NCBI GenBank assembly: GCA_023701365.1 | Contig: JAMPXD010000010.1 | Span: 1-38,167 of the forward strand | Origin: Geobacteraceae bacterium | GTDB lineage: Bacteria > Desulfobacterota > Desulfuromonadia > Geobacterales > Geobacteraceae | Direction of reading: 5' to 3' | Length of the DNA stretch: 38,167 nucleotides | Shown here: piece after piece, positions 7,485 to 36,869 of the stretch | How positions within the stretch are numbered: position 1 is the stretch's first letter | Layout: each line of letters begins with the position of its first letter | Notes under the pieces: generated by a model | What the model saw: the letters and a program-made list of their open reading frames with translations, nothing else | Database searches by the model: none | What the model was told of the DNA's origin: nothing | Made by a program: the position numbers and the translations under genes

Positions 7485-9311
<1,827 letters not shown>

Positions 9312-13343: not shown

Positions 13344-13414
13344 AAGCAGGCGCTAGGTGCCAGGCGCTGGGCATGGGTTAGATAATCCTCGTGCCTAGTG
13401 CCTCGTACCTGCTT
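13344..13414 (+). repeat. Long imperfect hairpin of heptamer repeats, rpmI-rplT spacer
   Basis: The left arm (13344-13371) pairs with the right arm (13387-13414). The outer 7 bp (AAGCAGG/CCTGCTT) are perfect and the inner part has several G-U pairs and a few mismatches. Each arm consists of 7-bp near-repeats, for example GCTAGGT, GCCAGGC, GCTGGGC on the left and GTGCCTA, GTGCCTC, GTACCTG on the right. No T tract follows, so it is not a classical terminator. Confidence 0.75.
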
Positions 13415-13484
13415 CCAAGTCCGCGAACCGTGAGGAAACGTCTCCCCTTGCGGATCCGGCAAATATCAAGCAAAGGAGCAGAAA

Positions 13485-21983: not shown

Positions 21984-24900
21984 TCAGCCTGCCTCATTTC
22001 CCATCCGGACGACAACCTGGTGCTTCACCAGGCCCCGCTCCAACGGGATCATGCCACCGGTCACGCGCTGCCCATCCATCTCAACCCAGGCGACACCGCG
22101 CTCGCAGCCGTGGGGATTCTCCACCTGGATCGCGTAGATCGCTTCACCGTGCCGATAGCGGAGGCTGAAGCCATCCCATGCCGCGGGGATGACGGGATTC
22201 ACCCGCAGCTGCCCGCCGTGCACCTGCAAGCCCAGGACCTCTTCAATCCAGGCCCGATACATCCATGCCGCCGAGCCGGTATACCAGGACCAGCCACCCT
22301 GTCCCACCCGACCGGGTAAACGGTAGACGTCGGCCGCAACCACATAGGGTTCAACCCCGTAGTGCCAGACCGCTGCCGCATCGCGGGCGTGCTCGATCGG
22401 ATTGAGCATGCGCAGGAGCTGCACAGCCCGCTCCCCATCCCCTTTGCGGGCCATGGCCATGGCCATCCAGAGGGCGGCGTGGGTGTACTGACCGCCGTTC
22501 TCCCGCACCCCGGGGGGATACCCCTTGATGTAGCCGGGGGAGGGGTCCGATTTGTCGAAGGGGGGCTCGAAGAGGAGCACCAGACCTTCATCCTTGTGGA
22601 CGAGATGGCGCCAGGCCGACTCCAGGGCCTGAGCCGCGCGCTCAGGATCGGCTGCACCGGAGAGCCATGCCCAAGACTGGGGGAGGGAATCGATCCTCGC
22701 CTCCCTGTTTGCCGCGGACCCGAGCGGGGTGCCATCGTCGAAGGTCCCCCGCAGATACCACTCACCATCCCAGCCGGCCTGCTCGACCCGCTGGATCAGG
22801 GCATACCGCTCATCTTGATAGGTTTGGCTCAGCTCCGGCTGGTCGAGGAGGCTTGCCAGTTCGGCCATCCCGCGCAGAGAATCACAGAGGAACCAGGCGA
22901 GCCAGACGCTCTCCCCTTTCCCCCCGGCGCCCACCAGGTTCATCCCGTCATTCCAATCCCCTGTCCCCATCAGGGGCAAGCCATGGGGCCCGATCGTCAG
23001 GCCGCGGCTGACTGCGGCCCGGCAGTGTTCAAAGAGCGTGGCGCGTTCAAAGGTTACCTCCGGCGTGGCGAATACCTCGTGCTGATCGTCCGCCAGCGGG
23101 GGGGCGTTGAGGAAGGGGACCTCGGCCCGGAGAATGTCGGCATCGCCGGTGGTCCGGACGTAGTGGGCCACCACGTACGGGAGCCAGAGGAGGTCGTCGG
23201 AGATACGGGAGCGGATCCCGGCGCCCTCAGGTTCATGCCACCAATGCTGGACATCCCCCTCCTTGAATTGCCGGCTGGCGGCCAGCAGGATCTGGTTACG
23301 CGCCAGCTCCGGTTTGGCGTAGAGAAACGCCATGACGTCCTGCAGCTGATCGCGAAAGCCGAAGGCGCCGCCCGACTGGTAAAAAGCGGAGCGTCCCCAG
23401 ATGCGGCAGCTTAACGACTGGTACTGGAGCCAGCGGTTGATCAGGAGGTCGGCGGCCAGTTCTGGGGTGCGTACTTCAATCGTCCCCAAGAGCGCATCCC
23501 ACCAGGCCCTGGTCTGATCGAACGCGTCCTCCAGGGCCTGATCCTCCCGGAAGCGGAGCACCAGCTCCCGGGCCTGCGCCACCGACCCGGCCTGGCCCAG
23601 CATGCAGCTGATCTCCCGTCGCTCGCCGGGAGCCATTTCCAGGGTCACCCGGAGTGCCGCGCACGGGTCGAGCCCCGCCCCGGTCCGTTGTGACAGCCGG
23701 GTCAGCTCCATGGCCGCCGGGTTGGCCAGCGAGCGGTTGCGGCCGATGAAGGCGGTGCGGTCGCCGCCGTATGAGTCGGCCCGGGGAGTGATGGCCACGA
23801 AGGCGACCCGCTCCCCGTACTCGGGGTGGTAGCGGTTCCGCGCCAGCAGGGCCTCGGCTTCGTCGTCCCAGTTGGTCATGACGTGCATCTGGGAGGTTTC
23901 GCGGTTCTCGCCGAGGGTCAACTCCACATAATAGGTTATCGAGAGCCGGCGTCTTCTGGGGGAGGCATTGGTGAGCCGCAGCCGCTGCAGCTTGATCGGC
24001 TCTCCCCCCTTCTCATTCACGGGGACGAAGACGGTCAGCTCCTGCTCGATGCCGTTGCTGTTATGCTCGAAGACCGTGTAGCCCGCCCCGTGCCGGGCCC
24101 GATAGGCGCTCTCCTCGCGGATCGGCGCCGCGGTCGGCGACCAGAAGACGCCGCTTTCCTCGTCGCGGATGTAGAGCGCCTCGGTCGCCGGGTCCAGCAC
24201 CGGGTCGTTCGACCAGCCGGTCAGGCGGTTGCGCTGGCTGTTGCCATACCAGGTGAAGCCGGACCCGGTTTCGCTGACCAGGGTGCCGAAGGTCGGATTG
24301 GCGATGACGTTCACCCAGGGTGCGGGGGTGTTGGTGTCGGGGCCGAGATAGATCGCGTATTCACGCCCGTCCGGGGTAAAGCCACCGAGGCTGTTGAAGT
24401 AGTTCAGCTCCATGAAGGGGAGCGGGGCCGAGGGCTCCCGGGGAGCACGTTTCCGGGGAAGCCGCTCCAGCATTTCGGTAGCCTCCACCGGCACCCCCAG
24501 TTGCTGGGGCAGCGTGCCGCGTGCCGCCACCAGCACGATGCTGGCCGCGGCCTTGAGAAGCCTTAGATCCTCTTCCGGGATCTGCGCCGCGCTCCGCAGG
24601 AAGATCCCGCCCGGCCGATCAGCCGCTGCGGAGAGGGTATGGGCCTGGATCAGCTGTTCCAGTCGTTCCTGGAGCGGCCGCTCATAGCCCCCCGCCTCCT
24701 CGTTGAGGATCACCAGGTCGGTCGCCAACCCGTGCGAACCCCAATAGGTGTGGGCCTGGAGCATCTGGCGGACCAGGCTGATCTCCCGCGCCTCACCGAT
24801 GGTAACCAGGGCCATCGGCAGGTCGCCCGAAATGGCGTAGGGCCATAACCCTGCCTGGCCCTTGCGGTTCTCTTCCAGGCGTTCGCCGGGTGGCCGCAAG

Positions 24901-27900
24901 AGGTGATTGGGAAACAGCAGATGACTCGCCAGTTGCTGGAAGCGGCGCGCTTCGTCAGGCTGGATGTGCAGCATCTGCAACTCCTGCTGGGCCGAGCCCC
25001 AGGCGAAATCCATGGCCCGTTCGGCCGCATGGGGGTCGCTGTACTTATCCATCAGCAGCAGGACCTGCTCGCGGGTCGCCCCGGCGGCAAGCACCAGGGA
25101 AACCCGGGCGCGCTGGCCCGGCTCCAGGACAAGACTCCGCCGCAGGCTTAAGCTCGGATCCAGGACAAACCCCTGGCTGTTGCCGAGCTCTTGCACGGCC
25201 CCCATGGGATTGGCGAGGGTCCGGCCACGGCCGATGAAGCGGCCCCGGTCGGTTTCAAACTGGAAATCAGTTTGAACTGATCGGTCGGATATGTCTGATC
25301 GGTCCGGTATGTCGGATTTTGAATCATGTAGCGTCAGGCAATGAGCCACATACAGCGGTGGGTCATTTTCACCCCGCGGTCTCCGGAAGGCGAGGAGCGC
25401 CTGTTGCTGCGGGACCGCCTCGGTCTGGATGAACAGCTTGTTGAAGGCCGGGTGCTGGCGGTCCGCGTTGTGGGGCGCCATGGAGAGCTCAACGTAGCTG
25501 GTCAGGTTGAGGCGGCGGTCGCGGCTGGAGCGATTGACCAGGGTAATCCGGCGCACCTCCACGTCGTCTTCCGGCGAGACGATGATCTCTGTTTCGGTGT
25601 GAATTCCGTTATCGCTGCGCCGGAACACGGCCCGGTCAAGGGCGAAGTCAACGGAATACCCTTCAGGCTTGCCGCCGACCGGGTGCCAGGTGCTGGACCA
25701 GACACGATCCGGATCGGCCTCGTGGATGTAGCAGAAGGTCCCTTGCCCATCACGGGTCTGATCCGACCGCCAGCGGGTTAGTTCCCGGTCGCCCCACTGA
25801 CTGTAGCCGCCGCCGCTGTTGGTGACCATCAGGCCGTAGCGGCCGTTGCTGAGCAGGAGGCTCTTGGGAGTGGCGGTATGGGGCGTGGTAATGGTGCTTC
25901 CTGCCGGGGCGACCAGGTCTGCAGCCAGGAGCTGCGGCTCACTCTGCCGCGTCGAGATCAGGTGCAGCGGCGGCAGGGTCGGGATGCGCTCCTGAAGCAG
26001 GGCCTCAAAGGCGCGCACCCGCGGGTCGCTGTGAAAGCGGCGCGGGAACGGGTTGCCATGGAGGAAGTTGGTCAGCGCCAGGAACGCCATCCCCTGATGA
26101 TGGGCCATATACGCCTCGATGATCACCCCGCGCTTGAGAGGCTGGCTCCCGGCGTCACGCTGCGGTTGCCGGCTGAAATCCATCGCCTCGTAATAGCCGT
26201 AATCACCGAGCAACCCCAAGCCGGCCAGTCGTTGCAGATTCTGCACGGTCTCGCCCGGCGCCACGTTCAGTGCCAGCAGGGTGGCATAGGGAGCGACGAC
26301 CAGTTTTTCCTCCAGACCGCGCTTCAATCCGAGGGCCGGAACGCCGAAGGCCTTGTACTGGTAGTTCTTGTTGAGGTCGAGATCGGCAAAGGCGGACTCG
26401 GAAATGCCCCAAGGCACATTAAGCGAGCGGCCGTAGGCGATCTGGATCGCAACCGCTTCCCTCGCTGCCTTGTCCAGGAGCGAATTGCCGTAGGAGCGCT
26501 GGAACAGGAGCGGCATCAGGTATTCGAACATGGTCCCGGTCCAGCTGAGCAGCACCCGCTGCCGGCCGATTGCTCCGTAGGGGCGGCTCATGGAGAACCA
26601 ATGCTCCAGGGGGACGTCGCCCCGGGCAATGGCAACGAAACTGCCGAGCCGCGCCTCACTGGCCAGCAGGTCATAACTGGAGGCGTCCAGACGATCCAGA
26701 GAGACGTTGTAGCCGATGGCGAACAGCTTTCGCTTGGGGTCATAGAGAAATTGCATATTCATCCCGGCCGACAGCTCGCGGACGTCGATGATCAACCGCT
26801 CAGCCATTGCCAGGGTTTCGCCGGCCAGCCATTGCGATGAGGCGAATGCTGCGATAACGCGGTCGAGCCATGGTGCCAGAGATGCGTCGCTACGAAAATC
26901 TCCCTCTCCTTCCCCATCCCCCTCCTGACCTCCCCCTTGAAGGGGGAGGGACCCGACCAGCGGAATATTGGCGCTGATCCTATCCCGAATTGCTGTAAGA
27001 ATTTCGATCGAATCGACCCGGCCATGGGCGAGATCGAAGAGCGAAGGCGCCCGGGACAGGTCCCGGCGGATGGCGAGCAGGGCCTCTGGCCCCAGCTGGG
27101 CAAGCTCCGGTTCGGTCTTCTCCGCAAGGATTTCGATCCAGGTGAGATAGCGGTCCGAGATCGTTGTCCAGGCGGCCACCTGCTCCTCCATCTCACCGGC
27201 CCATGAGGCCGCTCCTCCCGGGACAAGAGGGACCCTGAAGTTACCCGCCATTCTCCGCAGCAGGCGCAGTCCATCAACGATGCGGGGGGGTGGAGATTCC
27301 CACTCGGCCAACAGGCCGCCCAGGATGCGGAGATCGAAGCCGGAGCGGCGTTCAAGGCCCACGGACTGTTTCAGGATTGCGCCGGTGTCGTAAAATCCGG
27401 CAAAGGCCTTGTCATCCAGGAGGGGGGCGTGCACCAGCTCGTCAAGCCCCTGTTCCATGGCCACCAGGGCGCCGAGCAGGTTGCCGCTGTCGACGCCGGA
27501 GACGTAGCGAGGCTCCAGGGGGACCAGGGTCTGGATATCGTACCAGTTCAGGAGATGCCCTTGATGGCGTTCCAGACGGCCTATGGTTGCCATGGTGCTG
27601 GTCAGCCTTTCGACGACCTGGTTGATGGTCAGGTAGCCGCAGTCATGGGCACCCAGCGCGCTGGTCATCCAGAGGCCGATGTTGGTCGGACTGGTACGCA
27701 TGGCCAGGCGGTCCAGATGGGAGACCTGGTAGTTGTCGGGGGGCAGCCACGACGTGTCATCACTGACAAATGCCGAAAAATAGCGCCAGGTCCGCCGGGC
27801 GACCTCCCTGAGGAAGCGGCGGTCCGTTTCCGGCAGCGGGTGTGCCCTCTGTTGCTCGGCAGGACGCAGGTTCAGGAGCCAGCCGAGCAGCGGCGAGAGA

Positions 27901-30900
27901 AACCACAGCCCGAGCCAGGGGAGGGCCAGCGGCAGGCTCTCCGGCATGACGCGAAAGGTCGCCCAGCCCGCAATGACACTGAAGAGGCTCCCCAGCGCCA
28001 GGCTTGCAACGAAGAGCGGTTGCCGGCGGGAGGCGCTCCAATGGGTAGCCTGGGCCGTCCACTCCAGAAGATCGCGCCCGGATATCAAGCGGCGGTACCA
28101 GACCCGGGCAATGGCATCCAGGGTCACCGCCGCCTGGTGCGGCAGCAACGCGGCGTCGGCGGTCGCCCGCAGCAGGTCGTGCAGTACCTTCGACAGGTCG
28201 AAGTACTTCAACCCCTTGCGGGTGGTGGCCATGGTGAAGGGCTGCGCCAGAGGGTGGAAGAGGAGCTGCATGCCGACCACCAGCGTGGCGATCCCGCCGA
28301 TCCCCGGGGAAATGAGCCAGGAGGCGATCAATAGGCAAAGGCTCGCGGCGGGCAACAGGCTGCGGCGCAGGTTGTCGAGGATCTTCCAGCGGTTCAAGAG
28401 GGAAAGCGGGTTCGGTCCCCGGCCGCCGGAAGCCAGCGGAACACGCGGGAAAATCCACCCGGCGATCTGCCAGTCGCCGCGAATCCAGCGATGGGCCCGG
28501 CTGCTGAAGCTCTGGTATCCTTGCGGAAACTCATCAAAGAGCTCGATATCGCTCGCCAGTCCCACCCGGACGTGGGCGCCTTCGATCAGGTCGTGGCTCA
28601 AGACCCACTCTTCGGGGAATTTCCCCGACAGCACGCGGCTGAAGGCGGCTACGTCGTAGATCCCCTTGCCATGGTACGATCCTTCGCCGCTCAAGTCCTG
28701 ATAGACATCGGAAACCGCCTGGGTGTAGGGGTCGATGCCGACCGCATCGGCGAAGAGCCGGCTGAAGGTCGAGACGCTCGTGCTCGGCAGGGTCGGGCTC
28801 ACCCGCGGCTGGATGATGGTGTAGCCGGCCATGATGCGACCCGACGGATCGAAGCGGGGCCGGTTGAGGGGGTGCGCCAGGGTTTCCACCATCCTGCGGG
28901 CCGCAGCGTGCGGCAACTGGGTGTCACTGTCCAGGGTGATGACGAAGCGCACGTCCGCCAACTGATCCTGGTCGCCCACGTAGACCATGGCTGCGGCGGT
29001 CTCCGGGCGCGTGCCGTCGATCAGGCGGTTCAGTTCCTCCAGCTTGCCCCGTTTGCGCTCCCAGCCGATGAATTTCTGCTCGGATTCGCTCCAGGTGCGC
29101 TCCCGATGGAACATGAAAAAACGCGCGCCGCCATGACGCTGGTTCAGCTCCGCCAGGGATGCTGTCGCGGTCTGGAGGAGTTTGCTGTCGTCTTCGCGCG
29201 TGAGCGTGGCTGCATCAGTGTAGTCCGTGAACAGGCTGAACAGCAGATTTGCTTCCTTGTTGGCCAGGTAGCGGATCTCCAGCTTCTCCACCTCGGCTAG
29301 TACCGTCGCCGTGTTCACCAGCATCATCGGCACGACCACCAGGGTGCGGAATGCATCGGGAATCCCCGCGTCCTCGAAATCCATCTTGGGCAAGGGGCGT
29401 GGCGGCAGGAGTCGCGTGACCAGGTAGTTGACCAGCTCTATCGCCAACTGGCTTACCGGAATCAGCAGGAGCAGCAGAAGTCCAAGACAGACTATAGGTG
29501 ATGATCCGACTGATCGGTCCGATCCGACCGATCCGACCGAGAATAAGATCAAAGCAGAGAAGCCGCCGATGCCGAGGGCGTAGACGGCGGCGTGGTGCCG
29601 ATAAACCCATTCCAGGGCACGGTAACGCAGCGCTTCGCGGCATTCCAGCAGCCGCGTCAGCTCAGCCCGTCCCTCCCCGACCAGCCAGGCGCCGACGTGG
29701 CTGCGCCGCTCATCGGCTGTTGCTTCACGCCCTGCCTGCGTCGCCAGCTTGACAACGCGCTCCGCGACCTGTTCCTCGGTACGGGCGGAGCGGCGGGCGA
29801 GATCCTCGATCGCCCGACGGCAGCGGTCACGGGTTGCGAAATCCATCACGGGGTAGACCCCGGACGGATCGCGGCGCAGCAGCAGCTCCACCTTGCTTAG
29901 CTTCTCGAAGATCTCCCGCCAGTCCAGCAGGGCCAGCTGACGCAGGCTGGTGAAGGCATTGCCGCAGGCCAACTGCTCGCTGGTCTGCCGGTTCTGCTCA
30001 CGCTGGTTGAGGTCGTGCAGGGGGTTCTTGAGCGTGCGCTCAAGCCAGCTCTGGACCGGCGCCAATGCGGCCGCCTCGTCGTAGAGCAGGCCGACCAGCT
30101 GCGCGCCGAAATAGGTAGTGGGGCACGGCTCCGCTTTCGCAAGTTCCGCGAGGATTGCGAAGAGTTGGTTGGCGTCGCGGCGATTGGCGGCGATCAGCCG
30201 GTTCGCCCAGAAGTCGGCCAACTGACGTTCGCGCAGGTCCGCCAGGGCCGTGACGGCCAGACTCTGGATGCTTTCGATCAGTGCGATGCGCAGCATCTGG
30301 GGAATGGCCCAGAGCTCGCCGATCGTCAGCGTGCGCACGGACTGGTGGGCCTCGATGAATGCCAGGATATTCTCCCGGTCCAGGCGCAGTTCGTTATGGG
30401 AAACGAGATTCTTGGCCAGACCGTAGATGCACGGCAGCCCCCGGAGGGGATCGGCGGCCAGTGTGGGGAGCTGCCGGTAAAAACGCCGGGGAAGGTTCAG
30501 CAGGACATCGCGGGCGTTCCCCTCAAGGATGTACTCGTTATCAAGGATCCAATCGGCGGCCGGCGTGGCCTTCTGCTCCAGACGGCTCGCCGCGGCAAGG
30601 TCTGCGCAGACCTGACGGACCCATAGACGGGACTGCTTGAGACGCTTGAGCAGTTCGGCAGTGCGCTGCGGCCCCGGGTCCACCTGCTGCTCGCCGGCAT
30701 GGCGCCGGGCATGCTCAAGGACCTGTGCCGGGGAGAGCTTTGCCGCGATGCCCCGCGCCTCCAGCCGCCGCTCGCACCTGGGATGGATGACGAACAGCGC
30801 CGGAGGGATATCGCTGCTTTCCCGCAGCATGGCCAGCGGACGCTGCAAGGTCTCGACCGGTGCCTGGAGGATCAGCACGGATTCACCGGAGACGAGCCAG

Positions 30901-31325
30901 CGGGCGTGATCGTGCACGACCCCTGGCTCGACACCATGCCTGGAGCGTCGCAGCCACAAAAGAGCTGCCAGAGCGCCGATTGTGGCAGATGCAAGGATCA
31001 GCGCCGGGGAAGTGGCAATACTCCAGCCTGGAAGCGACTTCTGCCGGTGCAGGAGCAGAGCGGCCATTCCGGCAATTCCCCCGAAGAGACAGGCAGCCAG
31101 GGTTATCCCCAAGGCACGGCGCCGGAGGAACGGCTCTGCGATATGGACATCTCCGTCCGTGCCCTTATGCACCAGGGCGGTGCGGCGGAAACCCTGTCGC
31201 GCCAGTTCCCGGAGAGCTGTCCGGGCTTCATCTTGTTTTGCGAAGTAACCAATCAGAATGCCAACGCCCACTATTTGTCCTTTGACTACGTAGTCTGAGC
31301 GTCGAGCCATGGTGAGGAATTTCAC
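21984..31325 (-). CDS. Giant NdvB-like cyclic beta-glucan synthase (GT84/GH94)
   Basis: A 3113-residue membrane enzyme expected to build, cyclise and trim a beta-glucan, probably delivered to the periplasm. In order: an N-terminal segment (about 1-150) with hydrophobic stretches; a GT84-like glycosyltransferase with LDSDTQLP near residue 798 and RAHRWIRGDWQ near 945, bounded by membrane segments; a glycoamylase-like domain (about 1210-1720); two GH94 N-terminal sandwich domains (about 1822-1882 onward and 2308-2378 onward); and a GH94 phosphorylase-like catalytic domain with the acid Asp in GTGDWNDG near 2790. Known NdvB/Cgs proteins are about 2800-2900 residues, so this one is longer. Three low-complexity segments (about 595-609, 1459-1476, 2004-2017) look like inserted repeats. 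The start (GTG 31325 or ATG 31310) lacks a clear ribosome site. Confidence 0.88.
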   Translation of the reverse strand: MKFLTMARRSDYVVKGQIVGVGILIGYFAKQDEARTALRELARQGFRRTALVHKGTDGDVHIAEPFLRRRALGITLAACLFGGIAGMAALLLHRQKSLPGWSIATSPALILASATIGALAALLWLRRSRHGVEPGVVHDHARWLVSGESVLILQAPVETLQRPLAMLRESSDIPPALFVIHPRCERRLEARGIAAKLSPAQVLEHARRHAGEQQVDPGPQRTAELLKRLKQSRLWVRQVCADLAAASRLEQKATPAADWILDNEYILEGNARDVLLNLPRRFYRQLPTLAADPLRGLPCIYGLAKNLVSHNELRLDRENILAFIEAHQSVRTLTIGELWAIPQMLRIALIESIQSLAVTALADLRERQLADFWANRLIAANRRDANQLFAILAELAKAEPCPTTYFGAQLVGLLYDEAAALAPVQSWLERTLKNPLHDLNQREQNRQTSEQLACGNAFTSLRQLALLDWREIFEKLSKVELLLRRDPSGVYPVMDFATRDRCRRAIEDLARRSARTEEQVAERVVKLATQAGREATADERRSHVGAWLVGEGRAELTRLLECREALRYRALEWVYRHHAAVYALGIGGFSALILFSVGSVGSDRSVGSSPIVCLGLLLLLLIPVSQLAIELVNYLVTRLLPPRPLPKMDFEDAGIPDAFRTLVVVPMMLVNTATVLAEVEKLEIRYLANKEANLLFSLFTDYTDAATLTREDDSKLLQTATASLAELNQRHGGARFFMFHRERTWSESEQKFIGWERKRGKLEELNRLIDGTRPETAAAMVYVGDQDQLADVRFVITLDSDTQLPHAAARRMVETLAHPLNRPRFDPSGRIMAGYTIIQPRVSPTLPSTSVSTFSRLFADAVGIDPYTQAVSDVYQDLSGEGSYHGKGIYDVAAFSRVLSGKFPEEWVLSHDLIEGAHVRVGLASDIELFDEFPQGYQSFSSRAHRWIRGDWQIAGWIFPRVPLASGGRGPNPLSLLNRWKILDNLRRSLLPAASLCLLIASWLISPGIGGIATLVVGMQLLFHPLAQPFTMATTRKGLKYFDLSKVLHDLLRATADAALLPHQAAVTLDAIARVWYRRLISGRDLLEWTAQATHWSASRRQPLFVASLALGSLFSVIAGWATFRVMPESLPLALPWLGLWFLSPLLGWLLNLRPAEQQRAHPLPETDRRFLREVARRTWRYFSAFVSDDTSWLPPDNYQVSHLDRLAMRTSPTNIGLWMTSALGAHDCGYLTINQVVERLTSTMATIGRLERHQGHLLNWYDIQTLVPLEPRYVSGVDSGNLLGALVAMEQGLDELVHAPLLDDKAFAGFYDTGAILKQSVGLERRSGFDLRILGGLLAEWESPPPRIVDGLRLLRRMAGNFRVPLVPGGAASWAGEMEEQVAAWTTISDRYLTWIEILAEKTEPELAQLGPEALLAIRRDLSRAPSLFDLAHGRVDSIEILTAIRDRISANIPLVGSLPLQGGGQEGDGEGEGDFRSDASLAPWLDRVIAAFASSQWLAGETLAMAERLIIDVRELSAGMNMQFLYDPKRKLFAIGYNVSLDRLDASSYDLLASEARLGSFVAIARGDVPLEHWFSMSRPYGAIGRQRVLLSWTGTMFEYLMPLLFQRSYGNSLLDKAAREAVAIQIAYGRSLNVPWGISESAFADLDLNKNYQYKAFGVPALGLKRGLEEKLVVAPYATLLALNVAPGETVQNLQRLAGLGLLGDYGYYEAMDFSRQPQRDAGSQPLKRGVIIEAYMAHHQGMAFLALTNFLHGNPFPRRFHSDPRVRAFEALLQERIPTLPPLHLISTRQSEPQLLAADLVAPAGSTITTPHTATPKSLLLSNGRYGLMVTNSGGGYSQWGDRELTRWRSDQTRDGQGTFCYIHEADPDRVWSSTWHPVGGKPEGYSVDFALDRAVFRRSDNGIHTETEIIVSPEDDVEVRRITLVNRSSRDRRLNLTSYVELSMAPHNADRQHPAFNKLFIQTEAVPQQQALLAFRRPRGENDPPLYVAHCLTLHDSKSDIPDRSDISDRSVQTDFQFETDRGRFIGRGRTLANPMGAVQELGNSQGFVLDPSLSLRRSLVLEPGQRARVSLVLAAGATREQVLLLMDKYSDPHAAERAMDFAWGSAQQELQMLHIQPDEARRFQQLASHLLFPNHLLRPPGERLEENRKGQAGLWPYAISGDLPMALVTIGEAREISLVRQMLQAHTYWGSHGLATDLVILNEEAGGYERPLQERLEQLIQAHTLSAAADRPGGIFLRSAAQIPEEDLRLLKAAASIVLVAARGTLPQQLGVPVEATEMLERLPRKRAPREPSAPLPFMELNYFNSLGGFTPDGREYAIYLGPDTNTPAPWVNVIANPTFGTLVSETGSGFTWYGNSQRNRLTGWSNDPVLDPATEALYIRDEESGVFWSPTAAPIREESAYRARHGAGYTVFEHNSNGIEQELTVFVPVNEKGGEPIKLQRLRLTNASPRRRRLSITYYVELTLGENRETSQMHVMTNWDDEAEALLARNRYHPEYGERVAFVAITPRADSYGGDRTAFIGRNRSLANPAAMELTRLSQRTGAGLDPCAALRVTLEMAPGERREISCMLGQAGSVAQARELVLRFREDQALEDAFDQTRAWWDALLGTIEVRTPELAADLLINRWLQYQSLSCRIWGRSAFYQSGGAFGFRDQLQDVMAFLYAKPELARNQILLAASRQFKEGDVQHWWHEPEGAGIRSRISDDLLWLPYVVAHYVRTTGDADILRAEVPFLNAPPLADDQHEVFATPEVTFERATLFEHCRAAVSRGLTIGPHGLPLMGTGDWNDGMNLVGAGGKGESVWLAWFLCDSLRGMAELASLLDQPELSQTYQDERYALIQRVEQAGWDGEWYLRGTFDDGTPLGSAANREARIDSLPQSWAWLSGAADPERAAQALESAWRHLVHKDEGLVLLFEPPFDKSDPSPGYIKGYPPGVRENGGQYTHAALWMAMAMARKGDGERAVQLLRMLNPIEHARDAAAVWHYGVEPYVVAADVYRLPGRVGQGGWSWYTGSAAWMYRAWIEEVLGLQVHGGQLRVNPVIPAAWDGFSLRYRHGEAIYAIQVENPHGCERGVAWVEMDGQRVTGGMIPLERGLVKHQVVVRMGNEAG
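25277..25316 (-). repeat. 18-bp tandem repeat inside the glucan synthase gene
   Basis: Two adjacent 18-bp units (25277-25294 and 25295-25312) agree at 16 of 18 positions; being six codons long they keep the frame. They encode the Asp/Ser-rich DIPDRSDISDRS. Confidence 0.7.
26899..26950. repeat. Palindromic C-rich/G-rich element inside the glucan synthase gene
   Basis: CCTCCCCCTT (26929-26938) and AAGGGGGAGG (26940-26949) form a 10-bp perfect inverted repeat around one base, flanked by a pyrimidine-rich tract. It encodes SLPLQGGGQEGDGEGEG, unlike the rest of the protein, and looks like an intergenic-type repeat carried in frame. Confidence 0.65.
29500..29541. repeat. 9-bp tandem repeats inside the glucan synthase gene
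   Basis: GATCCGACC is repeated at 29521-29529 and 29530-29538, preceded by GATCCGACTGATCGGTCC. The nine-base period keeps the frame and encodes VGSVGSDRSVGSS between hydrophobic segments. Confidence 0.65.
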
Positions 31326-32179: not shown

Positions 32180-32857
32180 CTATTGGGCAGGGATGGTGTG
32201 GCGGATATCCTTCCCCTTGACCATGAAGATCACCATCTCCGCTACGTTGGTGGCGTGGTCGGCGATCCGTTCCAGGCACTTGGAGATGTAGTTGATCTTG
32301 ATGGCGCGGGAGATGGTCTCGGGGTCCTCGATCATGAAGGAGAGGAGCTCCCGCTGGATTTGCTCGTTCAGGTCGTCCACGAACTGGTCGTCCCGGCAGA
32401 CCTTGAGCGCCATGGCGTCGTCGCCCCGGACAAAGGCGTCCAGCGCCTCCTTGACCATCACCCCGGCCGCCTGGGCCATCCTGGGGAGGTCGATGTAAGG
32501 CTTGAGCGGCGGCTCCCGGTTGAGCTCCATCGCCCGCTTGGCGATGGCGGCGCACTGGTCGCCGATCCGCTCCAGGTCGGTGACGATCTTCAGCGCCAGG
32601 GTGAGGAAGCGCAGGTCGCGGGCCGCCGGCTGGCGGGTGGCAAGCACCTGGAGGCACTTCTCGTCGATCTCCACCTCCAGGTGGTTGATCTGGTGGTCGA
32701 AGGCGATGGTCTCCGCGGCCAGCGCCGAGTCCCGCTCCACCAGCGACTTCATGGAGTTGGTGATCATCACCTCCACCTTCCCCCCCATCTCCAGGAGCTT
32801 CTGGCGGATCTCGTTCAGCTCCAGGTCGTACTGTTTGACTATGTGTTCTCTTTCCAC
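32180..32857 (-). CDS. phoU: Phosphate signalling protein PhoU
   Basis: A 225-residue all-helical protein of two three-helix bundles that links the Pst transporter to the PhoR/PhoB pathway and restrains both when phosphate is plentiful. Each bundle has the family's metal-binding helix pattern: TLALKIVTDLERIGDQCAAIAKRA (about 86-109) and KINYISKCLERIADHATNVAEM (about 187-208). The start is GTG at 32857, 5 nt after GGAGG (GGAGGTTTCC). It is the last gene of the pst operon, in the usual position after pstB. Confidence 0.97.
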   Translation of the reverse strand: MEREHIVKQYDLELNEIRQKLLEMGGKVEVMITNSMKSLVERDSALAAETIAFDHQINHLEVEIDEKCLQVLATRQPAARDLRFLTLALKIVTDLERIGDQCAAIAKRAMELNREPPLKPYIDLPRMAQAAGVMVKEALDAFVRGDDAMALKVCRDDQFVDDLNEQIQRELLSFMIEDPETISRAIKINYISKCLERIADHATNVAEMVIFMVKGKDIRHTIPAQ

Positions 32858-32871
32858 GGAAACCTCCAGAA

Positions 32872-32951
32872 TCAGGTAAAGTTAGAACAAAAATCAGGTT
32901 GAGGTTGAGGTTGAGGAATTAAATACTTTACCTTTACCTCTACCTTTACCT
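32872..32951. repeat. Hexamer repeats in the phoU-pstB spacer
   Basis: On the plus strand three GGTTGA units (32897-32914) are followed by CTTTAC, CTTTAC, CTCTAC, CTTTAC (32926-32949). GGTAAAG at about 32874 can pair with CTTTACC, giving an extended hairpin. The 127-nt spacer otherwise shows no gene. Confidence 0.75.
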
Positions 32952-32984
32952 GTGAGCGCAGCGAACGGACACCTCTACCTGCTG

Positions 32985-33764
32985 TTAACCGAACCGTCCG
33001 GTGATGTAGTCCTCGGTCTGGCTCTTGTCGGGATTGGTGAAGATCTTCTTGGTCTCATTAAATTCTATCACCTCTCCCAGGTAAAGAAAAGCGGTATGAT
33101 CGGAGACCCGGGCCGCCTGCTGCATGTTGTGGGTGACGATCAGGATGGTGACCTTCTCCTTCAGCTCCAGCATCAGCTCCTCGATGCTGGCGGTGGCGAT
33201 CGGGTCGAGGGCCGAGGTCGGCTCGTCGAACAGGACCAGCTCTGGGTCGATCGCCAGGGCGCGGGCGATGCAGAGCCGCTGCTGCTGGCCGCCGGAGAGG
33301 TTGAACGCCAGGTCGTGGAGGCGGTCCTTGGCCTCGTTCCAGAGGGCCGCGTCGCGTAGCGCCTGCTCCACCTTCCCCTCCAGGGTGCTCCTCTTGCTTA
33401 CGCCGCGCACCCTGAGGCCGTATGCCACGTTCTCGAAGATCGACTTGGGGAACGGGTTCGGCTTCTGGAACACCATGCTGATCCGCATCCGCACCTCGAT
33501 CGGGTCGACCTTCGGGGAGAGGATGTTGACGTCGTCCGGATGGAGGATGATCTCCCCGTCGTAGCGGTTGCCGGGGTAGAGGTCGTGCATCCGGTTGAAG
33601 CAGCGCAGGAAGGTGGACTTGCCGCAGCCGGACGGGCCGATCAGCGCCGTGATCTTGCGGTCGTGGACCGGCAGGCTGATTTCCTTGAGCGCCTTGTAGT
33701 CACCGTAGTAGAAGGAGAGGCTCCTCGCCTCCGCTTTGAGGGTGTTGCCGCCTGTTTCAGACAT
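32985..33764 (-). CDS. pstB: Phosphate ABC transporter ATP-binding protein
   Basis: The 259-residue ATPase that powers phosphate import through PstCA. Walker A is GPSGCGKST (43-51), the signature LSGGQQQRL lies near residue 155, and Walker B with catalytic Glu is [12 protein letters not shown] near 176; the H-loop is IVTHNMQQA. Length is normal. AGGAG stands 6 nt before the ATG at 33764. It lies between pstA and phoU in the standard order. Confidence 0.98.
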
Positions 33765-33790: not shown

Positions 33791-33847
33791 GCTAACTGCC
33801 AACTGCTGGTCCTAGGTCACTGGTCACTGGTCACTGGTCACTGGTCA
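33791..33847. repeat. Heptamer tandem array in the pstB-pstA spacer
   Basis: Eight consecutive 7-bp units: GCTAACT, GCCAACT, GCTGGTC, CTAGGTC, then ACTGGTC four times (33819-33846). The last four are identical, the first four diverged, as in an array that grows at one end. Confidence 0.85.
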
Positions 33848-33857
33848 GGCCATCGTC

Positions 33858-34781
33858 TCACCACTTGATCCTCTTCCTGATCCGGTAGCGCAGCCAGATC
33901 GCCACCCCGTTCATCAGCAGCGTCATCCCGAGCAGCACCACCCCGGCGGCCGCCGCGTTGTGCTGGAACGCCTCCTCCGGGCGGGAGGTCCAGTTGAACA
34001 TCTGGATCGGCATCACCGTGAACGGGTCCTTGAGCCAGGCGAAGGAGAGGTAGGGGAACTCGCCGGTCACGGGGGGGTGGGGGAGAAAGGCGATGAAGGT
34101 GAGGGCGCCGATGGTGATGATCGGGGCGGTCTCGCCGATGGCGCGGGAGAGGCCGATGATCACCCCGGTCATGATCCCCCCCTGGGAATAGGGGAGGACG
34201 TGGTTGGAGACCATCTGCCACCTGGTCGCCCCCAGGGCGTAGGCCGCCTCCCTGATGCTGCCGGGGACGGCGCGCAGCGCCTCCCTGGTGGCGACGATCA
34301 CCACCGGCAGGATCAACAGCGCCAGGGTGAGCCCCGCCGAGAGGATGCTCTGGCCGAGGTCGAGCTGGTAGACGAACAGCCCGAGCGCCAGCAGGCCGTA
34401 GACGATGGAGGGGACCCCGGCCAGGTTGGTGACGTTGATCTCGATCACGGCGGTGAGCCAGTTCTTCGGGGCATACTCCTCCAGGTAGATGGCGGAGGCG
34501 ACCCCGAGCGGCACCGCGGCCAGGGCGGTCACCAGCATGACCAGGGTGGTGCCGACCCAGGCCGACAGTATCCCCGCCTCCTCCGCGCTGCGGGAGGGGA
34601 ACGAGATGAAGAAGCCGGGTTTCAGCCGGGGGAGCCCCTCGGCGACCAGCTGGCCGAACAGCGCCAGCAGGGTCAGTATCCCCACCAGCAGGCAGACGAG
34701 GCCGACGATAGCGAAGATGATGTCCCAACGTTTGTGGCGGGCGATCAGTCCCCGCATTTCGTTGATGTTTGGCTGATTCAT
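33858..34781 (-). CDS. pstA: Phosphate ABC transporter permease PstA
   Basis: A 307-residue inner-membrane permease with about six segments that forms the phosphate channel with PstC. The EAA-like coupling loop is seen in EALRAVPGSIREAAYALGATRWQM (about 175-198), and GVIIGLSRAIGETAPIITIGA matches the family. I prefer the ATG at 34781 because GGAG lies 8 nt upstream; ATG at 34796 would add MRSLT and has no site. It ends about 93 nt before pstB, where the heptamer array is located. Confidence 0.96.
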   Translation of the reverse strand: MNQPNINEMRGLIARHKRWDIIFAIVGLVCLLVGILTLLALFGQLVAEGLPRLKPGFFISFPSRSAEEAGILSAWVGTTLVMLVTALAAVPLGVASAIYLEEYAPKNWLTAVIEINVTNLAGVPSIVYGLLALGLFVYQLDLGQSILSAGLTLALLILPVVIVATREALRAVPGSIREAAYALGATRWQMVSNHVLPYSQGGIMTGVIIGLSRAIGETAPIITIGALTFIAFLPHPPVTGEFPYLSFAWLKDPFTVMPIQMFNWTSRPEEAFQHNAAAAGVVLLGMTLLMNGVAIWLRYRIRKRIKW

Positions 34782-34796
34782 GGTCAAACTCCGCAT

Positions 34797-34833
34797 GGAG
34801 GTTCGAGGTTTAAATCCTCGTTCCTCGTTCCTT
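34797..34833. repeat. Heptamer and inverted repeat in the pstA-pstC spacer
   Basis: CGAGG (34804-34808) and CCTCG (34816-34820) form a short inverted repeat, and CCTCGTT is repeated in tandem (34816-34822, 34823-34829). Confidence 0.6.
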
Positions 34834-35745
34834 TTAGTAAACTTCCCGGAACCGCTTCTTCAGCCAGTAGCCGGCGATGTTGAAGACCAGGGTCATCAGC
34901 ATCAGGGTGAGTCCTGCGGCGAAGATGGTCTGGTAGCCGATGCTGCCGTGGGGGAGGTCGCCGAGGCAGACCTGGACGATGTAGGCGCTGATGGTGGCCG
35001 CCGGCTCCAGCGGGTTCCAGGTGAGGTTCGGCTGCATCCCGGCGGCTACGGCGACGATCATGGTCTCGCCGACGGCCCGGGAGATCCCCAGGATGTACGC
35101 CGCGGCAATGCCGGAGAAGGCGCTCGGCACCACCACCCTGGTAGCGGTCTGGAACCGGGTCGCCCCCATGGCGTAGGAGCCTTCCCTGATATGCATCGGC
35201 ACGGCGCGCATGGCGTCCTCGCTGACCGAGCTGATGTAGGGGATGATCATGATCCCCATCACCAGCCCGGCGGAGAGCATGTTGAAGCCGGAGAGGTCGG
35301 GGTAGATCATCTGCAGGAGCGGGGTGACTACGCCCAGGGCGAAGTAGCCGAACACCACGGTCGGCACGGCGCCGAGGAGCTCCAGGAAGGGCTTGACCAC
35401 TTCCCGCAGCCGGTGCGGGGCGAACTCGCTCAGGTAGATGGCGATCACGGTCCCCATCGGGATCGCCACCAGGAGCGCGACCGCGGTGGTGGTCAGGGTA
35501 CCGGCGACGAGCGGCATGATCCCGTAATGGGCGTCGTCGAAGAGCGGCGTCCACTGGCTGTCGGTCAGGAACTCCTTGAGCGGCACCTTGCGGAAGAAGG
35601 GGATCGACTCGTAGCAGAGAATCGCGACGATGGCGAAGGTGGTCGCCACCGAGGAGAGGGCGGCGAGGAGCAGGACCGACTCGATCAGCCGTTCCCGCAG
35701 GTGCCGGGTGTGGCTGTGGGCCAGGCGATGGTTTTTTCCGTTCAT
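34834..35745 (-). CDS. pstC: Phosphate ABC transporter permease PstC
   Basis: A 303-residue permease with about six membrane segments, partner of PstA. The coupling loop is EDAMRAVPMHIREGSYAMGATRFQTATRVVVPSA (about 180-213), and SRAVGETMIVAVAAGMQPN is typical of PstC. ATG at 35745 has CGGAG 9 nt upstream; a GTG two codons earlier (35751) is too close to that site. It follows pstS by about 116 nt. Confidence 0.96.
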   Translation of the reverse strand: MNGKNHRLAHSHTRHLRERLIESVLLLAALSSVATTFAIVAILCYESIPFFRKVPLKEFLTDSQWTPLFDDAHYGIMPLVAGTLTTTAVALLVAIPMGTVIAIYLSEFAPHRLREVVKPFLELLGAVPTVVFGYFALGVVTPLLQMIYPDLSGFNMLSAGLVMGIMIIPYISSVSEDAMRAVPMHIREGSYAMGATRFQTATRVVVPSAFSGIAAAYILGISRAVGETMIVAVAAGMQPNLTWNPLEPAATISAYIVQVCLGDLPHGSIGYQTIFAAGLTLMLMTLVFNIAGYWLKKRFREVY

Positions 35746-35861
35746 GGGCACGGACTCCGTAAGACTATCGTGACACGGCTGTAATCAGACTGCAACATAT
35801 GGCTGGCCAAAAAGAGAGGGGCGCAGGGCACCCCTCCCATCACCGGCGATGAACAGCGCTA

Positions 35862-36869
<1,008 letters not shown>

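Follow-up and report, generated by a model that had tools for sequence, protein, structure and literature searches.

Between pstA and pstB of a Geobacteraceae bacterium (GCA_023701365.1), eight heptamers stand in tandem inside the pst operon, and the question is whether such an array carries a role of its own or is spacer DNA that has grown by itself. Here, we consider this array within the window, i.e. the whole stretch of 38,167 nt analysed on contig JAMPXD010000010.1, together with further arrays of the same genome and with orthologous spacers of related genomes. The source genome is a draft of 3.79 Mb in 283 contigs, 90% complete, and the relatives searched include no other member of its genus. 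On balance the pstA-pstB array is probably slippage-grown spacer DNA without a unit-specific role. Coordinates of all features are collected in Table 1.

Table 1. Heptamer arrays, neighbouring genes and comparison landmarks in the window.
Feature	Position	Strand	Remarks
Eight-heptamer array	33791..33846	(-)	between pstA and pstB; from unit reading and TRF
Homogeneous (presumably youngest) block	33819..33846	(-)	ACTGGTC x4 on plus strand, GACCAGT x4 on mRNA; pstA side
Four diverged (presumably older) units	33791..33818	(-)	pstB side of the array
pstS	35862-36869	(-)	pst operon
pstC	34834-35751	(-)	pst operon
pstA	33858-34796	(-)	upstream gene of the array spacer
pstB	32985-33764	(-)	downstream gene; CAGGAG between array and ATG
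phoU	32180-32857	(-)	pst operon
pstC-pstA spacer, heptamer hairpin (AAGGAACGAGGAACGAGGATTTAAACCTCGAACCTCC)	34797..34833	(-)	37 nt; fold z = -3.0
pstB-phoU spacer, inverted pair of hexamer arrays	32896..32951	(-)	AGGTAA / AGGTTG types; fold z = -3.1
rpmI-rplT spacer hairpin, period-7 arms	13346..13411	(+)	directly before L20 leader; fold z = -4.5
L20-Deltaproteobacteria ribosomal protein leader (RF03126)	13419..13478	(+)	conserved comparison landmark

Read on the plus strand from 33791 to 33846, the units are GCTAACT, GCCAACT, GCTGGTC, CTAGGTC and four times ACTGGTC; the mRNA strand accordingly reads (GACCAGT)x4 GACCTAG GACCAGC AGTTGGC AGTTAGC. The original prediction of eight 7-bp units, four of them identical and four diverged, is borne out by this unit-by-unit reading as well as by TRF, whose row 33806-33847 has the top score (68) among 24 rows in the window. 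With exact 7-bp tandem units, a non-coding location and an occurrence far above chance, the array belongs to the intergenic heptameric simple sequence repeats (LSSR/STRR). On the mRNA it starts 11 nt past the pstA stop codon and ends ahead of the CAGGAG-CATGAT-ATG of pstB, so that the ribosome-binding site lies outside. Since GACCAGT includes a TGA and its length of seven is not divisible by three, three units suffice to close all sense frames. The RNA of the spacer folds no better than shuffled sequences (z = +1.7, and +1.4 for the array alone), which gives no sign of an RNA hairpin at this site, and the fold and partner check of the spacer revealed no inverted partner array nearby; the pst array is thus of the unpaired form. 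An intrinsic terminator was likewise rejected, given the z value of the spacer and the scarcity of T-runs elsewhere in the genome, where 3 of 39 strict pairs of period 7 are followed by one.

The pstA-pstB spacer differs between relatives. Geobacter sp. UBA6151 (L031) has 33 nt and no array; Geobacteraceae GEOBC (L032) has 67 nt containing GGGACCG units; here, the spacer reaches 93 nt with GACCAGT units. In these two nearest relatives, pstC and pstA overlap (TGATG), as opposed to the short heptamer hairpin that separates them in the window. In the pstB-phoU spacer (32858-32984), the inverted hexamer arrays are followed by ATTTTTG, a terminator-like arrangement.

Arrays no more frequent in operon spacers than expected by chance, the outcome that had been set against the original prediction, were not observed. 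In a 664-kb sample of the window's genome, the 85 kb of non-coding sequence contain 35 perfect runs of period 7 (array minus period at least 10), compared to a mean of 0.05 and a maximum of 1 in 20 dinucleotide shuffles; none of the other periods from 4 to 15 exceeds 6 runs. Placement was scored in 1.10 Mb with 1007 genes called by a home-made gene caller, such that some arrays scored as coding probably sit in spacers: arrays occur in 35 of the 466 spacers between co-directional genes, in 5 of the 79 between convergent and in 2 of the 77 between divergent ones, and 29 of 68 arrays lie in the first fifth of a co-directional spacer. Recurring unit types in the genome include AAAACTC, AAAGTGC, AATGCGG, ACTCCGC, AAGGCTG, AACCTCG, AAGGGCT and ACCAGNN, among others. 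The CTGGTC-N type, to which the pst array belongs, recurs at many loci, and most arrays keep one N. Contig ends, where long arrays might have broken the assembly, carry 5 arrays versus 2.4 expected, which is not significant. At five places (L148 11540, L168 2428 and 5145, L166 1046, L186 2522) the upstream gene has its stop codon inside a heptamer array, which suggests that the ends of these genes were rewritten as the arrays grew.

How arrays grow can be read from the 25 arrays of at least 49 bp in this genome. Unit identity is 0.939 between neighbours and drops steadily to 0.824 at a distance of eight units; neighbours also match far better than under shuffled unit order (1633 versus 1506 +/- 12). 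These long arrays consist of blocks of successive variants, e.g. GGGGACC followed by AGAGACC (in L212, four GGGGACC and then AGAGACC units) or GCGACCA, GCAACCA and GTGACCA in turn. Similarity falling with unit distance, together with variant blocks, agrees with the prediction for slippage of mutated units, and the expansion by slippage at one end that had been proposed for the pst array fits. The pst array, with its four identical units on the pstA side and decayed ones towards pstB, reads as a short version of these variant-block arrays.

From this we derive the following model. The pst array would be a self-sustaining, non-coding period-7 repeat located where extra DNA is tolerated, namely past a stop codon, within an operon and clear of the ribosome-binding site. 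Replication slippage, the presumed engine, would gain and lose whole units. A point-mutated unit (ACTGGTC, GACCAGT on the mRNA) would be copied locally and give rise to the homogeneous block, and at the opposite end the older units would decay; the word of the array would therefore drift over time, and period and position would persist. Growth of this kind would be nearly neutral, and a regulatory role tied to the unit sequence is most likely absent at pst. The direct effect of the array would be the longer intergenic gap, 93 nt versus 33 nt in the array-free L031, which may loosen translational coupling between pstA and pstB. In terms of the whole genome, the array would be a partnerless member of a set that consists mostly of inverted pairs with the G-rich strand reading inward.

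This pairing is pronounced. An inverted partner within 150 nt accompanies 107 of 152 sampled arrays, compared to 6 in a reversed-not-complemented control. The inward-read strand is the G-rich one in 105 of the 106 paired arrays that could be scored, and in all 39 strict period-7 pairs, which start at a median of 5 nt past the stop codon. An inverted repeat score of at least 12 is reached in 119 of 546 co-directional spacers, in none of their shuffles, and in 30 of 50 array-bearing spacers. A rival reading is that the arrays are RNA hairpins selected in operon spacers, where they protect mRNA 3' ends or insulate ribosomes or transcription; the words would be free to vary as long as the arms pair, and at pst one would be looking at a half that has degraded. 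Both the excess of inverted repeats and the start close behind the stop codon speak for it. However, the spacer at pst fails to fold, T-runs after strict pairs are rare, and the mismatches in the arms do not bear the mark of RNA. In repeat arms, 32 mismatches are G-U-compatible and 34 incompatible (A-C), which is what one would expect without selection on RNA pairing; with 66 mismatches a strong bias is unlikely to have been missed, although a weak one could be. Other hairpins without a T-run show 55 G-U versus 55 A-C, and T-run hairpins 12 versus 6, the latter being small numbers. The order of unit variants is not significantly mirrored between the arms (combined p = 0.66); the arms are therefore not clearly unit-by-unit inverted copies of one another. 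Pairing of the arms looks DNA-like rather than RNA-like, and the missing G-U preference together with the unmirrored variant order favours an origin at the DNA level. Shared loops were considered as proof that whole elements are copied and were rejected, as 31 loops are unrelated except for heptamer pieces and matches of 11-13 nt.

A further case for hairpins comes from the rpmI-rplT spacer. Here, lag-7 identity within the window is 0.53, versus 0.12-0.31 at other lags, and the hairpin is built from GCGCTAG/GTGCCAG and GTGCCTA/GTGCCTC units. The link that had been drawn from the pst units to this spacer holds with respect to the shared period-7 class, but not further: the unit differs, and a strong inverted hairpin is present there. 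We compared the stretch between the rpmI stop codon and the L20 leader in 16 Geobacteraceae genomes including the window's own (orthologous spacers L283-L306), counting an element when a hairpin with a G-rich 5' half was found in which lag 7 was the strongest of lags 5-9. Such a period-7 hairpin exists in 13 of the 16 genomes (fold z = -2.1 to -6.7) and is absent in the remaining three, which represent three genera. Its words include GGTCGAT, GTGACGA, GTGAAAA, GGCAAAG, GGGACCG and GGGACTA, and three species within one genus have three different words. Further g13 spacers, outside the scored 16-genome count, are of GGGACTA type with longer inserts. In the sequences compared, site, period and inward G-strand are kept while the heptamer word changes between species; this comparison was centred on the pst and rpmI-rplT sites, with light sampling elsewhere. 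A stable hairpin that persists after rpmI across most genera despite differing words is in favour of RNA hairpins and could indicate selection for structure, yet three genera do without it. Taken as an account of the arrays in general, the RNA hairpin strikes us as unlikely.

Slippage-grown spacer DNA, the reading we prefer, leaves three things unexplained as long as slippage acts locally: the nearly invariant inward orientation of the G-rich strand, the prevalence of inverted pairs, and the occurrence of a private word at dozens of unlinked loci. Several words are indeed private. GGTCGRT has 112 overlapping hits in genome G020, 2 in G025 and 0 in 45 others, and GAATGCG occurs 17 times in the window's genome and in none of 46 others. 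CTGGTC-N is less strictly private, with 99 occurrences here, 14-17 in G003, G006 and G019 and 1 in G002 and G011, and GGGACTA is spread over several genera. Since local slippage alone cannot spread a word across unlinked loci, we propose, with considerable reserve and as something that will more probably turn out wrong, that every genome of the Geobacteraceae distributes one or more private heptamers over many spacers behind stop codons, G-rich strand inward, and overwrites inherited words by an undescribed genome-wide copying process. Fold-back synthesis combined with inter-locus transfer, or an unknown enzyme, might accomplish this. Unit addition by a reverse transcriptase or telomerase-like enzyme was rejected, as the 90%-complete genome yields no RVT_1 (PF00078) match.

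Heptamers in this family are no novelty as such, although the original prediction knew of no description here. Aklujkar et al. 2009 listed 49 four-heptamer elements (GGACCGG) in G. metallireducens, where repeats in inverted pairs occur as well (PMC2700814), and private direct repeats of 6-42 nt, palindromes and multicopy sequences in 12% of intergenic regions are reported for the G. bemidjiensis genome (PMC2996986). The (GGACCGG)x4 elements, named Gmet_H4##, resemble the pst array in being dispersed tandem heptamers of Geobacteraceae (PMC2700814), and GGGACCG arrays occur elsewhere in the window's genome and in seven other genomes of the family in addition to the GEOBC pstA-pstB spacer. In contrast, Gmet_H4## forms one family that also lies within genes, whereas the pst unit, GACCAGT and not GGACCGG, is one among many. 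G. bemidjiensis agrees in that multicopy sequences are drawn in its phosphate and molybdate transport clusters; it differs in that the passages considered do not mention period 7, polarity or unit replacement at fixed sites (PMC2996986).

A different function has been proposed for other repeats of G. metallireducens. Its paired short-repeat sites, including arrays of five heptamers (MTYCTGA), were interpreted as IHF/HU sites (PMC2700814), and by analogy the arrays here might be DNA sites for a nucleoid protein or global regulator of this type. The layout is the same, in that short tandem repeats pair across opposite strands: the 'global regulator binding sites' of classes 1-3 (GTTGCTYN octamers, TCTCCGTS[Y], MTYCTGA heptamers) are likewise inverted pairs around a variable gap (PMC2700814), and the DNA-like pairing of the arms would suit a DNA-binding protein. 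On the other hand, the pst array is partnerless and its units are others; words vary by species and by locus without a common consensus, and a sequence-specific protein would have to follow every change. Moreover, the pst array sits inside an operon and not at a promoter. We consider a binding site of this kind improbable.

Equally little speaks for REPIN-like, non-autonomous mobile elements moved in trans by a Y1 (RAYT-type) transposase, which we hold for quite improbable. REPs flank their RAYT genes. There are seven Y1_Tnp genes in the window's genome, which would provide the enzyme, but none of them has a period-7 array nearby, and the RAYT route is thus unsupported. Like REPINs, the arrays are genome-private, dispersed over spacers and equipped with inverted arms around variable, unrelated loops (PMC3116915); unlike REPINs, they show neither RAYT linkage nor a fixed arm sequence or tag, their arm lengths vary, they carry local growth gradients, and the pst array is unpaired. 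A phase-variation (contingency) locus, in which unit number switches pstB output, is very improbable: four identical units make a change in copy number plausible, but the array neither overlaps nor spaces a ribosome site or promoter, is not in a reading frame, and has comparable counterparts in many kinds of spacer.

In favour of slippage, heptamers are reported to outnumber all other long simple repeats in the majority of bacterial genomes, and slippage was proposed as their cause (PMC4679880). The GGGAATC and GGGGA(C/T)T heptamers of Xanthomonas and Nostoc are also intergenic, close behind the upstream gene and rare between divergent genes, they recur at shared sites in two species although their sequence has changed, and no regulatory role was found for them (PMC4692102); they differ in that each lineage has one G4-forming word, whereas the pst unit lacks G-tracts. 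The TAACTGA repeats of Beggiatoaceae, Cyanobacteria and Bacteroidetes are intergenic tandem heptamers as well, but use one word across phyla and mostly stand before start codons over the ribosome site (PMC4679880), whereas the pst array has another word and follows a stop codon instead of directly preceding a start codon. For a site, period and polarity that persist under a change of word, we found no earlier description in the main texts of open-licence papers. For Geobacter, an array like the one at pst is nothing unusual; the wider pattern is less commonplace. Anchored by fixed landmarks, the L20 leader among them, this pattern offers a comparative system for studying the origin, spread and maintenance of heptamer repeats in bacteria, which have raised the same question in Xanthomonas, Nostoc, Beggiatoa and Geobacter.

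Several other repeats were noticed. A gene for 3113 aa in the window (21984-31325) contains in-frame tandem repeats of 18 bp and 9 bp (CTGATCGGTCCGATATGT; GATCCGACC) at 25277-25317 and 29503-29540, which yield the protein stretches SDIPDRSDISDRSV and GSVGSDRSVGSS; repeat insertions are tolerated in this coding gene. Palindromes of the type GTAGGGTGGATTAAG lie beside a Y1_Tnp gene (L313 flanks) and in other spacers (L162 7133; L169 108), and are likely to form with that gene a REP/RAYT pair separate from the heptamer arrays. A second family of spacer palindromes, GTAGGGGCG...CGCCCCTAC, was seen at L167 15130, L166 5263, L178 17405 and L249 12960, and similar sequences exist in the pst spacers of the relatives L046 and L138. 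In L168 (1-5300), successive spacers of a co-directional gene run carry near-identical CTGGT-type elements with the common core GGAAACCCACTG..GACTCGACA; these elements were probably copied together with duplicated genes. Finally, the ORF at 7485-9311 of the window, which begins with a signal-peptide-like stretch, resembles by eye an NAD-dependent DNA ligase.
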